Positions 17,983-23,501 of a stretch of 23,501 nt of DNA are shown piece by piece (the first letter of the stretch is position 1; each line of letters starts with the position of its first letter). The translations under genes were made by a program, and so were the position numbers. This DNA is from a virus. The stretch spans positions 1 to 23,501 of the IMG/VR virus record IMGVR_UViG_3300020442_000301, one strand, 5' to 3'. A model generated the notes under the pieces. It was not told where the DNA came from. It searched no databases and saw only the letters and a list, made by a program, of their open reading frames with translations.

Positions 17983-18366
17983 ATGGAAGAAGAATTCTAT
18001 GCAACTATAAAACTAACATCTAATGAAGAGATCATTGCTAAAGTATGTTACCTAACTGATGAGGAGTGTTTACTAGTAGAGAAACCTTTACTAGTAACTA
18101 GAGCAAATCAAAAAAGGAATGGTAGATTAGTAGAAGGATTTTCTTTAAGTGATTGGGTAATGAGTTCTTATGAAGAACTATACATCATAAAGATGAGTCA
18201 AGTAGTTACTCTAACAGAGTTAGATGATAAGATATTAGGTTTCTATGAACGTCATTTAAGTGATGAACAAGATTCATCAGTAAGTAAGATGTCAAAAGAA
18301 ATGGGATATCTAGGTAACGTTAATGATCAAAAGAAAAAATTAGAGGAGCTTTTTAATAAAAGTTAG
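17983..18366 (+). CDS. Hypothetical protein, possibly Sm-like, AT-rich gene
   Basis: A 127-residue product starting two bases after the uvsW stop. The first 80 residues look like a small beta-barrel: EEFYATIKLTSNEEIIAKVC, then a turn and LLVEKPLLVTRA, and later ELYIIKMSQVVTLTELDDKI. This pattern resembles Sm/Hfq-like folds seen in some phage proteins; this is inference, not a match. The rest is a charged helix (DQKKKLEELFNKS). Codon use (TTA, AGA, GTA, AGT) is clearly more AT-rich than in uvsW or gp55, so the gene may have a different history. Confidence 0.7.
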   Translation: MEEEFYATIKLTSNEEIIAKVCYLTDEECLLVEKPLLVTRANQKRNGRLVEGFSLSDWVMSSYEELYIIKMSQVVTLTELDDKILGFYERHLSDEQDSSVSKMSKEMGYLGNVNDQKKKLEELFNKS

Positions 18367-18517: not shown

Positions 18518-19075
18518 ATGAAGAAAACCAGAACAAAGACAGAGTATTACGTAAACAACAAGGAGTTCCTTGCTGCTGTAATCCTCTTGCGGGATTTCTT
18601 CAAGGACGGTGAGCGTCTTGGACATAAGTCCTACCTAGAATCTATCAGCTACTACCGTTCTCATAGGGACAGACGAACTGCTGCTAGGTTCAGGCGATGC
18701 TATGAATACCTAGGTGACTGCTTCTGGAAGATCGCAACACACCTATCATACAAACCAAACTTTGTCAACTACATGTTCCGTGAGGACATGATCTGTGATG
18801 GCGTGGAGAACTGTATCCAGTACATCCTTAACTTTGACCCAGAGAAATCTTCTAACCCATTTGCCTACTTCACCCAGATCATCTACTACGCCTTTCTTCG
18901 TCGCATTCAGAAAGAGAAGCGTCAGTTGGAGATCAAGAGTAAGATCCTAGAGAAGTCTGGACACCAGGAGATCATGCACACAGACACGTATGATGGTGAC
19001 ATGGCAGGCATGAATGCTTCCTACTCTGACATGGGTAGTATCAAAGAAAACATTGAAACGAGAATGAACAGATGA
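18518..19075 (+). CDS. 55: Late-transcription sigma factor (T4 gp55-like)
   Basis: Directs host RNA polymerase to late promoters such as the CTAAATA/GATAAATA boxes in this window, together with the sliding clamp in T4. The 185-residue product equals T4 gp55 in length. It has the sigma region 2 core: FREDMICDGVENCIQYILNF then DPEKSSNPFAYFTQIIYYAF and LRRIQKEKRQ at about residues 86-140, comparable with the core-binding and -10 recognition segment of group sigma factors. The N-terminal helices (VNNKEFLAAVILLRDFFKDG) and a flexible, charged end follow the T4 pattern. No clear Shine-Dalgarno sequence; ATG 18513 lies in another frame. Its stop overlaps the gp47 start (ATGA). Confidence 0.92.
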   Translation: MKKTRTKTEYYVNNKEFLAAVILLRDFFKDGERLGHKSYLESISYYRSHRDRRTAARFRRCYEYLGDCFWKIATHLSYKPNFVNYMFREDMICDGVENCIQYILNFDPEKSSNPFAYFTQIIYYAFLRRIQKEKRQLEIKSKILEKSGHQEIMHTDTYDGDMAGMNASYSDMGSIKENIETRMNR

Positions 19076-20115
19076 CTATTGCACTTATTACTGATCAACA
19101 TCTCGATGGTCGTAAGGGCAGTCTGGCATTCTGGAATTACTTCCTCAAGTTCTATGAGGATGTGTTCTTCCCTACACTAGAGAAGAAAGGAATCAAAGAG
19201 ATCATCGACCTGGGTGACACGTTTGACAATCGTAAAACGATTGACTTCAATGTCTGGGATCGAATTCGTACTCACTACTTTGATCGCCTGGCAGATATGG
19301 GCGTCACAGTACATACGATCTTGGGTAACCACTGTGTGTACTACAAGAATACGAACGCTATCAACTCTCCTGATCTATTGCTAGGTGACTATGACAATAT
19401 ACGTGTCTATGATGAGACTACTACTGTTACTATTGAGGGCAAGAGAATTTGTTTTGTCCCGTGGATTAACAGGGAGAACGAAGCGTACACGATGGAGCAT
19501 CTCAAGCAAACGGATGCACAAATTGTCATGGGACACCTCGAACTCGACGGGTTTGAAGTAACACCTGGCATGAAGATGGAGCACGGTATGGACCCCAAGG
19601 TCTACAAGGACTTCAAACAAGTCTTCTCTGGTCACTACCACCACAAGTCGTCTAGGGGCAACATCACATACCTCGGCAATCCTTACCAGATGTTCTGGAA
19701 TGATTACGCTGACCAACGTGGATTCCATCTCTACGAACCAGCAACAAACAAACTTCGCATGGTCAAGAATCCATACGAGATTTTCAAGAAGGTATACTAT
19801 AATGATGTAGATAAGGACATGGTTCTAGACTACACCCAGTACAAAGATACCTTTGTCAAACTGATTGTGGAAGAGAAGCGTGACTACTACAAGTTTGAGA
19901 AGGTTGTGGAAAACCTGTACAATGCAGGTGTGCATGACATCAAAGTTGTAGAGACTCTGGTTGATGAAGACAACGTAGAGGAACCAGACCTGGAAGTCAA
20001 AGACACACTGACATTACTCAATGAGTACATCGATGAGGTAGAGATGACCGTAGAGAAATCTGACCTGAAGAAGTTGATGAGATCGCTATATATTGAAAGT
20101 TGCGAGATGGTCTAA
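19072..20115 (+). CDS. 47: Recombination nuclease subunit (T4 gp47, Mre11/SbcD-like)
   Basis: Nuclease half of the gp46/gp47 complex, which resects DNA ends to make single strands for UvsX-dependent recombination and host DNA breakdown. The 347-residue product (T4 gp47: 339) has all calcineurin-type metallophosphatase motifs: DQHLDG (D8, H10), DLGDTFDNRK (D49 region), LGNHCVYYKN (N86, H87), VMGHLELDGF (H155) and FSGHYHHKS (H188, H190). These bind two metal ions. The C-terminal 130 residues likely form the capping and gp46-binding parts. It overlaps gp55 by four bases and is separated from gp46 by one small gene. Confidence 0.97.
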   Translation: MTIALITDQHLDGRKGSLAFWNYFLKFYEDVFFPTLEKKGIKEIIDLGDTFDNRKTIDFNVWDRIRTHYFDRLADMGVTVHTILGNHCVYYKNTNAINSPDLLLGDYDNIRVYDETTTVTIEGKRICFVPWINRENEAYTMEHLKQTDAQIVMGHLELDGFEVTPGMKMEHGMDPKVYKDFKQVFSGHYHHKSSRGNITYLGNPYQMFWNDYADQRGFHLYEPATNKLRMVKNPYEIFKKVYYNDVDKDMVLDYTQYKDTFVKLIVEEKRDYYKFEKVVENLYNAGVHDIKVVETLVDEDNVEEPDLEVKDTLTLLNEYIDEVEMTVEKSDLKKLMRSLYIESCEMV

Positions 20116-20384
20116 TGTCTTACATCTTAACTCTCAAGGACAAGCCAGAAGGTGTGTTCTCTGTAGTCGATAGAGATTGTGGAGAGCACGTCGTGCCGAT
20201 CTTTGATGAGTTAGATGACTGTGAGCGTTATGCAATTCAGTTGACCGAGTGTGAGACTGACCTAGAATTGCAGATGATCGAGATAGAAAAAACATTAATA
20301 GTGGCAGCATGCGAGTCAAGAGACCAAAAGTATGCTATAATAACTGTGGACGACTTCATCATACCCCCTGACGACTTTACATGA
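20115..20384 (+). CDS. Small hypothetical protein between gp47 and gp46
   Basis: An 89-residue acidic protein starting MSYILTLKDKPEGVFSVVD at a TAATG overlap with gp47 and ending in an ATGA overlap with gp46. The body has two strands and a helix: DELDDCERYAIQLTECETDL, then the MIEIEKTLIVAACESRDQKY-AIITVDDFIIPP end. Such a compact strand-helix-strand pattern is reminiscent of small domains of unknown function in cyanobacteria, but I could not confirm any match. Because it is translationally tied to both subunits, a role with the gp46/47 complex is a fair inference. In-frame ATG 20100 is less likely. Confidence 0.75.
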   Translation: MSYILTLKDKPEGVFSVVDRDCGEHVVPIFDELDDCERYAIQLTECETDLELQMIEIEKTLIVAACESRDQKYAIITVDDFIIPPDDFT

Positions 20385-22111
20385 TTACGTTTGAAAAAGT
20401 TCGCTGGAAGAATTTTCTTTCGACTGGCAACACCTATACTGAAGTCGATCTGACTGCCAACAAAACCAATCTTATTATTGGCACAAACGGAGCAGGTAAG
20501 AGCACCATCTTGGATGCCCTTACCTTTTCTTTGTTTGGCAAACCTTTTCGTAAGATCAACAAACCGATGCTGGTCAATAGCGTCAACGAAAAGGACTGCA
20601 TGGTGGAGATTGAATTCAAGATTGGTCCTAACGCATTTGTTGTCAAGCGGGGTATCAAACCAGGGAAGTTCGAGATCTGGCAGAACGGGGCAATGCTAGA
20701 TCAGTCCAGTAATGCTGCTGACTATCAGAAGCAACTGGAGCAGAACATCCTGAAGATGAACTATAAGTCGTTCACTCAAATCGTTGTGCTAGGTTCGTCC
20801 ACGTTCGTTCCGTTCATGCGACTGCCTCTAGCACAGCGTAGAGAAATTATTGAAGACATCCTGGACATCCAGATCTTCTCGATGATGAACATCGCTCTCA
20901 AAGATAAGATGAAGATCTCTACTGAAGAGATGAGAGAGGTTGATTACAGTGCTGACATGGCAGAGCAGAAGATTGACATGCAGCGTCGGTTGATTGAGCA
21001 GTTGTCTACTCGTGATGAGTCTCTGATTAAAGAGAAGCAAGAGTACATTGACAAATTGTTAGGAGAAGAAGAAATTTGTCAAGTTTCTGTATCACAACTT
21101 AATGAAGAATCACAAAAACTTTATGAAGATTTAAGTGGGTTGGAAAGTGCGAACAAGAAACTTATAACTTTAAATAACTTGAAAGGAAAACTTACAAATA
21201 AGTGTGGAACTTTTAAGAAACAGCACCAGTTTTTTGAAGAAAACGACACATGTCCTACGTGTAGTCAATCTATTTCTAAAGAAGTTAAAGAACATAAAGC
21301 AGGTGTCATTAGAAGTCAAGTCAAAGAACTTGTCCTCGCTATCGAAGAACTTCGATGCAACATTCTCGATGAGCAAGAGAGAAGTGAGCAGCATCTGGTG
21401 AAAACCCAGGAGTTGAATCAACTTCAGCAGAAGATTGCTGCTCACAATGCTACTGTTACACGCATCAACAAGAACGTCAGGCAACTGATGTCTGATGTAG
21501 AAACATTACAAAATTCCAAAGACGACAATTCTGAAGAGGAAGAGAAGTTAAAATACTTGTTGGAAGAACGTGATAACCTGAAGAAGCAAGTTGCTCTCGT
21601 CAAAAAAGATAGAGACACTTTGCTAGCAGCATCTCAACTCTTGAAAGATAATGGAATCAAAACCAGGATCATCAAGAGGTATCTGCCAATGATGAATAAA
21701 CTCATCAACCAGTATCTTCAAAACATGGACTTCTTCGTCAACTTCACATTGAATGAGAACTTTGAGGAAACGATCAAGTCGCGGTTTAGGGACATCTTTT
21801 CTTACGAATCTTTCTCCGAAGGAGAGAAAGCTCGTATTGATATTGCTCTGCTGCTTACTTGGCGTAGTATCGCTAAACTTAAGAATAGCGTGGATACTAA
21901 CATCTTAATCCTTGACGAGATCTTCGATGGGTCTCTTGACCAGAACGGTACAGGTGAACTAGGATGGATCCTTCGGAACTTCGATGACAATACAAACGTG
22001 TTTGTCATCAGTCACAAGGAGAGTTTGGAGGGTAAGTTTGATAGAACCCTCGTCTGTGAGAAGATCAAGAACTTCTCGGTCGTCAAGGAGACAATTGCAG
22101 AAGCGGCATAA
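20381..22111 (+). CDS. 46: Recombination ATPase subunit (T4 gp46, Rad50/SbcC-like)
   Basis: SMC-type ATPase that controls the gp47 nuclease. The 576-residue product (T4 gp46: 560) has Walker A IIGTNGAGKSTILDAL at about 33-48, a long coiled coil from about 160 to 430, and the zinc hook CPTC at residues 291-294 (nt 21251-21262) in the middle. The ABC signature FSEGEKARIDIALLLTW lies around 478-494, Walker B LILDEIFDGSL around 508-518 and the switch His in VFVISHKE near 544. Thus the complete Rad50 layout is present. Codon use around the hook, about 21055-21325, is notably more AT-rich than in the rest of the gene. Confidence 0.97.
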   Translation: MITFEKVRWKNFLSTGNTYTEVDLTANKTNLIIGTNGAGKSTILDALTFSLFGKPFRKINKPMLVNSVNEKDCMVEIEFKIGPNAFVVKRGIKPGKFEIWQNGAMLDQSSNAADYQKQLEQNILKMNYKSFTQIVVLGSSTFVPFMRLPLAQRREIIEDILDIQIFSMMNIALKDKMKISTEEMREVDYSADMAEQKIDMQRRLIEQLSTRDESLIKEKQEYIDKLLGEEEICQVSVSQLNEESQKLYEDLSGLESANKKLITLNNLKGKLTNKCGTFKKQHQFFEENDTCPTCSQSISKEVKEHKAGVIRSQVKELVLAIEELRCNILDEQERSEQHLVKTQELNQLQQKIAAHNATVTRINKNVRQLMSDVETLQNSKDDNSEEEEKLKYLLEERDNLKKQVALVKKDRDTLLAASQLLKDNGIKTRIIKRYLPMMNKLINQYLQNMDFFVNFTLNENFEETIKSRFRDIFSYESFSEGEKARIDIALLLTWRSIAKLKNSVDTNILILDEIFDGSLDQNGTGELGWILRNFDDNTNVFVISHKESLEGKFDRTLVCEKIKNFSVVKETIAEAA

Positions 22112-22137
22112 GGGGGGTCTTCGGACCCCCTTTTTTT
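22111..22137 (+). terminator. Rho-independent terminator after gp46
   Basis: GGGGGTC (22113-22119), loop TTCG, GACCCCC (22124-22130), then seven T to 22137. Perfect 7-bp stem, starting at the gp46 stop codon. It ends the gp55-gp47-gp46 transcript. Confidence 0.93.
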
Positions 22138-22170: not shown

Positions 22171-23501
22171 ATGAACACCGCAGAAATCAAAGGTAACCTC
22201 GCTCGCCTTCTCGCCACCGAGAACCTCGTGGTTGAGCACCGTAAGGTCCCTACAGCGTCCTTCAATGTTGACACCCGTATCCTTACCCTGCCCATCTGGA
22301 ACGCTTCTAACAGCGTCTACGACCTGCTGGTGGGTCATGAGGTCGGTCATGCTCTCTACACACCCAACATTGACTGGGCAGAGGTAGCAAAGGTGCCCAA
22401 GGATTACGTCAACGTGGTGGAAGATGCTCGTATTGAGAAGTTGATGAAGCGAAAGTACCCTGGTTTGTCCAAGACTTTCTTCAAAGGTTACCAAGAACTT
22501 GATAACCAAGACTTCTTCTCCATCAATGATGAAGAACTTGATAACATCTCTTTCATCGACCGTATCAATCTTCACTGTAAGATTGGTGCCTTCTCCGCCA
22601 TGCCTTTCAGTGATGAGGAGCGTGTAATGGTGAAGAAAGTTGAGGAATGTGAGACTTTTGACGACGTTATTGCTGTCTGTCAGGAGATTTATGCCTATTC
22701 CCAGCAAGAAAAGCACGTTGATGCACCTGTAAATCCCAACTCTGGTGCTGCTCAAGGCACTACAGAACAGGTAGATTCTAAAGAATCAAAGCAAAACAGT
22801 GAATCTCCAAGCACCGATGGCGCACAATCTGTGCAGCAAACTGACAGCGATGAAGGTGAACTGGCAGAAGAAAATGTGGCAGCTGGTGGTGCTGCTGGCG
22901 GTGAAACCTCTGAAACTCAACGTGCTTTCGACGAAAATGTCCAAGATCTCGTCGAAGATGCTCCTTATTATTCGGAACCCACGTATGTTGAGATCCCTAA
23001 AATGAATCTGGACCACATTATTGTGGACCATGAGGTGCTGCAGAAGCATATTGAGGCACACTATGCTGAAAATGCACACAATCGTTACGATGATCCCATT
23101 GGATTTGTCACTGCCAAGTACAATGAGTACAAGAAATCTGCACAGAAAGAGGTCAACTACCTCGTGAAAGAGTTTGAGTGCAAGAAGGCAGCAGACTCCC
23201 ATGCTCGCACCACAACTGCACGTACTGGTGTGCTTGATACAGCAAAACTGCACACATACAAGTACAATGAGGACCTATTCAAGAAAGTTTCTGTTCTTCC
23301 TGACGGCAAGAACCACGGAATGATCTTTATTCTTGACTGGTCTGGGTCCATGTCGAACTATTTGCAGGACACAATCAAGCAATTGCTGTCCCTGGTGTGG
23401 TTCTGTCGCAAGGTAAACATTCCTTTTGAGGTTTATGCCTTCACTTATGAGTGGAATCGTCGCTTCCTTGACCCAGATGAGCATGACTATGATCCGACAG
23501 T
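22171..23501 (+). CDS. Metallopeptidase-like protein with VWA domain (3' end outside window)
   Basis: The frame is open from ATG 22171 to the end, 443 complete codons. The N-terminal domain has LLVGHEVGHALYTP at about 51-64, an HExxH motif (H56, E57, H60). Then VVEDARIEKLMKRKYPG at about 82-98 follows, where a Glu/Asp could be the third zinc ligand, as in gluzincin-type peptidases. Residues 175-255 are a low-complexity, Gln/Ser/Glu-rich linker. The C-terminal part shows MIFILDWSGSMSNYLQ at about 384-399, a MIDAS motif (D389, S391, S393) of a von Willebrand A domain, with the rest beyond the window. CobT-like VWA proteins of this type are known beside an AAA+ CobS-like gene in cyanophages; a chaperone-like or chelatase role is one idea, a protease another. 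It has its own transcription unit. Confidence 0.9.
   Translation, partial: MNTAEIKGNLARLLATENLVVEHRKVPTASFNVDTRILTLPIWNASNSVYDLLVGHEVGHALYTPNIDWAEVAKVPKDYVNVVEDARIEKLMKRKYPGLSKTFFKGYQELDNQDFFSINDEELDNISFIDRINLHCKIGAFSAMPFSDEERVMVKKVEECETFDDVIAVCQEIYAYSQQEKHVDAPVNPNSGAAQGTTEQVDSKESKQNSESPSTDGAQSVQQTDSDEGELAEENVAAGGAAGGETSETQRAFDENVQDLVEDAPYYSEPTYVEIPKMNLDHIIVDHEVLQKHIEAHYAENAHNRYDDPIGFVTAKYNEYKKSAQKEVNYLVKEFECKKAADSHARTTTARTGVLDTAKLHTYKYNEDLFKKVSVLPDGKNHGMIFILDWSGSMSNYLQDTIKQLLSLVWFCRKVNIPFEVYAFTYEWNRRFLDPDEHDYDPT

Follow-up and report, generated by a model that had tools for sequence, protein, structure and literature searches.

A cyanophage 'peptidase' gene encodes a predicted zincin-VWA protein that is paired with a CobS-like ATPase and is distinct from cobaltochelatase CobT by family tests

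The last gene in the stretch of viral DNA analysed here (the window; 23,501 nucleotides, positions 1 to 23,501 of IMG/VR record IMGVR_UViG_3300020442_000301) is predicted to encode the subunit that binds and cuts substrates in an ATP-driven remodelling and protease machine of two proteins, a reading to which we give a probability of roughly 60%. The protein joins an N-terminal zincin-like domain to a C-terminal VWA domain, and the gene for its putative ATPase partner lies immediately downstream. The features concerned are as follows.

19072-20115: gp47, upstream of gp46
20381..22111, + strand: gp46 recombination nuclease subunit, upstream of the gene studied here
22110..22133, + strand: intrinsic-terminator-like hairpin of 10 pairs with a T tail, between gp46 and the gene studied here
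22171..23501, + strand: VWA/metallopeptidase-like gene ('peptidase', PHROG 459, T4-GC 146), first 443 of 706 codons, ATG start, open at the contig end
22171..22722, + strand: N-terminal zincin-like domain, residues 1-184, limits taken from the full-length model, supported by an AlphaFold model and structural matches to zincins
22336..22350, + strand: HEVGH, residues 56-60, predicted zinc-binding and catalytic motif in helix 47-63
22411..22440, + strand: NVVEDARIEK, residues 81-90, predicted third-ligand motif in helix 77-95
22738..22899, + strand: disordered acidic linker, residues 190-243, pLDDT below 50
23095..23217, + strand: long connecting helix, residues 309-349, from the full-length model
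23308..23501, + strand: start of the VWA domain, from about residue 380, which runs past the window to residue 706 (model, structural matches and the continuing contig)
23335..23349, + strand: MIDAS DxSxS motif DWSGS, D389-S393, with the MIDAS Thr and Asp beyond the window in the continuing contig

The missing 3' end was recovered from a second contig, L057 (IMGVR_UViG_3300020442_000339), whose bases 1-77 are identical to window positions 23425-23501. Because an exact overlap of 77 nucleotides resembles that between adjoining contigs of a k=77 assembly, the two seem to be adjacent pieces of a single phage genome, and joining them gave a complete protein of 706 residues that includes the rest of the MIDAS (SGTP, LTDG). 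A PHROG search placed the 443-residue product in PHROG 459, 'peptidase' (alignment over residues 1-437, E 6e-195); a second, weak match was to a family of phage proteins labelled 'cobalamin biosynthesis protein'. By tblastn the gene was matched in 463 of 50,697 phage records, nearly all from Synechococcus or Prochlorococcus phages, with S-CAM1 as the nearest orthologue (91% identical). The orthologues have 706 codons in S-CAM1 and 740 in S-PM2, and in both genomes 'CobS' comes directly after them. Neither Pfam nor NCBIfam gave the S-CAM1-type protein a label, and PDB sequence searches with the cyanophage protein returned no meaningful match. The hairpin that follows gp46 suggests that the gene forms a separate transcription unit, and a promoter scan found no sigma-70-like promoter immediately 5' of it. 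Elsewhere in the window, a small gene between uvsW and gp55 (17983-18366) carries the PHROG 471 label 'methylamine utilization', a doubtful name for a conserved cyanophage gene.

The original prediction, made from the DNA letters, rested on the occurrence of HEVGH and VVEDARIEK in one phage protein, and both motifs proved to be conserved throughout the cyanophage family. H56, E57, H60, N81, E84, D85, R87 and E89 were unvarying in 86 diverse N-domains, a set biased for testing motif conservation since part of it had been retrieved with HExxH-containing patterns. In an unbiased retest, in which patterns outside the HExxH motif were used (VWA-only patterns, pooled with the first scan), HExxH and ED.R.E were kept in all 96 distinct ORFs with a complete N-terminus; three further ORFs retrieved by their VWA lacked the motif, being cut or frame-shifted ahead of it, and represent no true loss. 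The motifs are thus not due to chance. The AlphaFold model of residues 1-180, built with 86 sequences, reached a pLDDT of 92.1 and showed, in order, a helix, three strands, the HEVGH helix (47-63) and the EDARIE helix (77-95). The invariant E84, D85 and E89 lie in the latter, at the following-helix position where a third ligand is predicted. All nine of the best PDB matches found with Foldseek were zincins (ArdC, abylysin, jannalysin, selecase), with probabilities of 0.84-0.98 but individually weak E-values (0.035-0.21). In a library of viral models, significant matches (E<1e-3) were to close relatives, to VWA proteins labelled CobT in other phages and to a protein of the haloarchaeal virus HHTV-2; M48, SprT and IrrE-like zincins came next after the CobT-labelled VWA proteins, below significance. 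The model thus supports the metallopeptidase-like character claimed at the outset for this part of the protein, with a predicted zincin fold and the HExxH in its active-site helix, and the conservation of that motif in the cyanophage family suggests, as far as a motif can tell, that catalysis has been kept.

The C-terminal half likewise agreed with what had been predicted, namely a disordered linker followed by a VWA domain with an intact MIDAS. The low-complexity residues 190-243 were modelled as disordered and, with the long helix 309-349, connect the two folded parts of the full-length model. Among 82 full-length homologues D389, S391, S393 and D539 of the MIDAS were invariant and T507 was nearly so, and H56, E57 and H60 were likewise invariant in the same set. 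The best PDB match of the full-length model was NorD in NorQD complexes, matched by the VWA half, and human MDN1-MIDAS was also listed. The domain is therefore a VWA domain with a complete MIDAS, as in AAA+-VWA chaperones of the MoxR/NorQD type, and its best match is itself the VWA partner of a MoxR-type ATPase, in line with the suggestion that such proteins work with MoxR/CobS-type AAA+ ATPases.

The check proposed at the outset was to look for an AAA+ gene beyond position 23501, and one was found there: about 69 bases downstream of the 706-residue gene, the second contig encodes a CobS-like AAA_5 ATPase of 354 residues with intact Walker A (GLSGNGKT) and Walker B (LLLDEID) motifs, an AAA_5 match and a weak match to the CbbQ/NorQ C-terminal domain. 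The genes for the gp45 clamp and the gp44 clamp loader follow. In 169 of the 176 related loci whose sequence extends far enough downstream, a CobS-like ATPase lay within 4 kb on that side, and in three more it lay slightly farther on or upstream. In NorQD, midasin and CobST, a VWA protein docks on an AAA+ ring and the MIDAS grips an acidic residue of the target. By analogy with NorQ/NorD and CobS/CobT, the CobS-like ATPase would form a ring and dock the VWA domain, the MIDAS metal would grip an acidic residue of the target, the ring would pull or remodel that target, and the tethered zinc peptidase could then make a limited cut. It is the invariance of E57 that leads us to include limited proteolysis.

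The genes around the pair bear on what its targets might be. In cyanophages it has gp47/gp46 on one side and gp45/gp44/gp62/regA/gp43 on the other. In Ochrobactrum phage OC it is flanked by gp46/47 and the clamp, in DLP6 it comes after DNA polymerase, uvsX and a primase-helicase, and in the Rhizobium phages, nickie, ANB28, SSU5 and PhiR41_1 it precedes DNA polymerase or polymerase III alpha. The pair is near primase or polymerase in ICP2 and T5S1, and near primase-type genes or polymerase III alpha in three plasmids. At least five relatives lack that context, which does not show nearby in the Gordonia and Rhodococcus phages, CRP-810 and HCTV-1. A CobT-like gene followed by a CobS-like gene and then by a gene for DNA polymerase III alpha or for DNA polymerase, with DNA ligase often lying upstream, recurred in phages of unrelated hosts (L290, L292, L295, L296, L203, L205), and this conserved order, as a lead drawn from gene content, suggests a role linked to replication. 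In three plasmids a DUF3150 gene lies just upstream of the HExxH-VWA gene (L207:2479-3753, L208:1361-2467, L209:1835-2803), and in two of these it sits between that gene and the ATPase; it may be a third component.

The targets of the predicted machine would be DNA replication and recombination proteins or virion-assembly proteins, and the position among gp46/47, the sliding clamp and the clamp loader weakly favours the former. For group 2.2 jumbo phages a chaperone-protease acting on head or tail proteins has been proposed (PMC7824862). Such a role would say something about the target rather than the mechanism, and it therefore overlaps with both the proteolytic and the non-proteolytic readings of the machine. 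That proposal is helped by the cyanophage head and tail genes, which lie upstream in the same genome region; the genes directly beside the pair, however, serve recombination and replication, both here and in numerous unrelated phages and plasmids (genes for DNA polymerase III alpha, primase, ligase and clamp among them), and plasmids, which have no virions, also carry the pair. On balance, we consider a virion role fairly unlikely.

Divergent CobT-like proteins were read from phages of Rhizobium, Escherichia, Salmonella, Vibrio, Roseobacter, Gordonia, Rhodococcus and Ochrobactrum, from the haloarchaeal virus HCTV-1, and from plasmids of Hydrogenophaga, Rhodanobacter, Geobacillus and Moellerella. 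Most of these 'CobT' proteins from phages, archaeal viruses and plasmids keep HExxH (variants include HEVAH, HECGH, HEAGH, HETGH, HECQH, HEAAH, HEIGH, HESAH and HECYH), and most also have an ED motif; in ICP2, HECYH is kept and the second motif is altered. Cellular carriers appear to be rare in the one cellular phylum searched, since among 145 genomes from it the starting genome alone matched. On an Opitutales MAG contig (L162:6328-15280) two pairs of an AAA_5 gene and a HExxH-VWA gene stand next to each other, one of the HEAAH/EDARIE type and one of the DUF2201 type; another large ORF lies in between. Two phage proteins are apparent pseudo-peptidases as judged from their sequences: at the place of HExxH, Pseudomonas phage nickie (L290:2855-4939) has FLDSEISK and Stenotrophomonas phage ANB28 (L292:2858-4843) has FLDREVST, while both retain the VWA domain and the downstream partner gene, in the usual order. 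The catalytic motif is thus dispensable in some lineages and strictly kept in cyanophages. Homologues that retain the VWA domain without HExxH had been named beforehand as the observation that would count against a peptidase; none occurred in the cyanophage family, but nickie, ANB28 and the true CobTs are of this kind.

The same losses give some weight to an AAA+/VWA remodeller in which the zincin domain would bind metal for structural reasons and carry out no proteolysis, or would serve only for docking, because nickie, ANB28 and CobT have all retained the N-domain after losing HExxH. NorQD, CbbQO and RavA-ViaA are remodellers that work without proteolysis. A purely structural zinc site would not, however, require the general base, and in cyanophages E57 is as invariant as both histidines. 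We regard the non-proteolytic alternative as unlikely, and prefer the remodelling machine with a cutting subunit.

Whether the protein is CobT was addressed with family models. The full-length S-CAM1 orthologue did not match TIGR01651, the CobT equivalog model (cut-off 759 bits), to which Pseudovibrio CobT, as a positive control, scored 1005 bits. The cyanophage protein matched neither PF06213 (CobT) nor PF11775 (CobT_C), and its CobS-like partner, at 70-74 bits, fell far below the TIGR01650 CobS cut-off of 558.55. CobN was encoded by none of the 13 phage or plasmid records searched; among the control genomes, that of Synechococcus elongatus encodes CobN and that of E. coli gave no CobN match. 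A direct profile comparison of the cyanophage N-domain with that of canonical CobT gave 5.6% and was not significant. Profiles of the divergent mobile-element proteins, together with those of Pseudovibrio (L161) and Opitutales (L162), were linked to the cyanophage N-domain at 99% (E 5e-19 for the core set), and the mobile-element set was linked to the canonical CobT N-domain at 96.9% (E 1.6e-10), so that this divergent set was needed as a bridge where the direct comparison was not significant. By these profile comparisons the cyanophage protein is distantly homologous to CobT, both in the N-domain and in the VWA domain with its CobS-type partner, and by the family tests it is not the cobaltochelatase subunit CobT.

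In all true CobTs examined the HExxH position is changed, and the ED.R.E position survives as EQARVE. In a tree of VWA domains the CobTs grouped in a single clade (100/100), next to the Rhizobium and coliphage types; the tree was rooted at the midpoint and has many long branches, and only the single-clade result is firm. True CobT would accordingly be a sister lineage with a homologous zincin domain that has no HExxH and is predicted to be dead. Pseudovibrio sp. Ad37 encodes a HEAGH paralogue (L161:7827-9653) whose score of 31.4 bits is above the Pfam CobT cut-off of 26.1, in the same genome as a true CobT and forms a bridge between the two families. Labels among the homologues are scattered (H179, H247, H290) and include ribosome assembly protein, RNA binding protein and dimethylbenzimidazole phosphoribosyltransferase, the last a mix-up with an unrelated enzyme that is also named CobT.

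It has been stated that the cobST genes of archaeal viruses and cyanophages join host cobaltochelation and that cyanophage cobT is 'mistakenly annotated as a peptidase' (PMC8651126), and a 2023 study lists cyanophage cobS under vitamin B12 synthesis, at about one copy per myo-cyanophage (PMC9983427). Phage CobS and 'CobT' would then join host CobN and boost cobalt insertion for B12-dependent nucleotide synthesis; the distant homology to CobT is real and Synechococcus elongatus does encode CobN, but this reading is improbable given that the CobT and CobS models reject proteins where true CobT passes, that the phage and plasmid records supply no CobN, that cyanophages keep the HExxH which true CobT has lost, and that the pair occurs in PhiR41_1, a phage-plasmid infecting E. 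coli MG1655, and in Salmonella phage SSU5 though the E. coli control lacks a CobN match. The published remark on mistaken annotation therefore looks wrong, and the original preference for a remodelling or proteolytic machine over a cobalamin chelatase was supported, with peptidase activity as its inferred part.

Nearly all marine T4-like cyanophages carry cobS and the gene described here, and cobS is commonly classed with the auxiliary metabolic genes for vitamin B12. Should the pair prove to be a protease-remodeller, the ecological reading in terms of B12 would be wrong for a very abundant gene, and an origin for the cobaltochelatase subunit CobT would be at hand. More tentatively, we propose that phages, archaeal viruses and conjugative plasmids share a family of MIDAS-targeted AAA+ metalloproteases, tied to replication genes and misread as cobalamin machinery, from which CobT may have arisen by losing the protease site and in which independent inactivations may have occurred in nickie and ANB28; this wider scheme is possible, with the odds somewhat against it.

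Several known systems resemble parts of the cyanophage pair. NorQ-NorD shares the VWA fold, the MIDAS and the AAA_5 partner; to our knowledge NorD has no zinc-peptidase domain, unlike the cyanophage protein. CobT (TIGR01651, PF06213, PF11775) is alike in its distant N-domain and VWA homology and its CobS-type partner, but it has lost HExxH, forms its own clade and works with CobN, and the cyanophage protein fails all three models. The minigluzincins (abylysin, jannalysin, selecase) and ArdC share with the N-domain the order of helix, strands, HExxH helix and Glu helix (E 0.035-0.21), but they are stand-alone or otherwise fused, unlike the cyanophage zincin-VWA. DUF2201_N/DUF2201 (PF13203/PF09967) combines a putative metallopeptidase and a VWA-like domain next to an AAA+ gene, as in cyanophages; homology to it was not significant (hhalign with a single sequence, 0.7-7.5% probability). 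The cyanomyovirus 'peptidase' family itself (PHROG 459, T4-GC 146) includes the window protein as a member of the same architecture, its function being a label. A parallel in described architecture comes from the group 2.2 jumbo phages: there, and not for cyanophages, its group 2.1, a 2021 study reported a MoxR ATPase together with a protein whose N-terminal metallopeptidase is joined to a vWA domain, and proposed a function in virion assembly (PMC7824862). Agrobacterium phage Atu_ph07 proved not to be the source of ASV44728. The group 2.2 pair (ASV44728/ASV44729) shares with the cyanophage pair the N-terminal metallopeptidase, the C-terminal vWA, the adjacent MoxR-type ATPase and the gene order; it differs in the virion role proposed for it, in contrast to the replication-gene context in cyanophages. 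The architecture is thus already known from other jumbo phages, and our evidence favours the metallopeptidase reading of that study and extends it to a cyanophage core gene.
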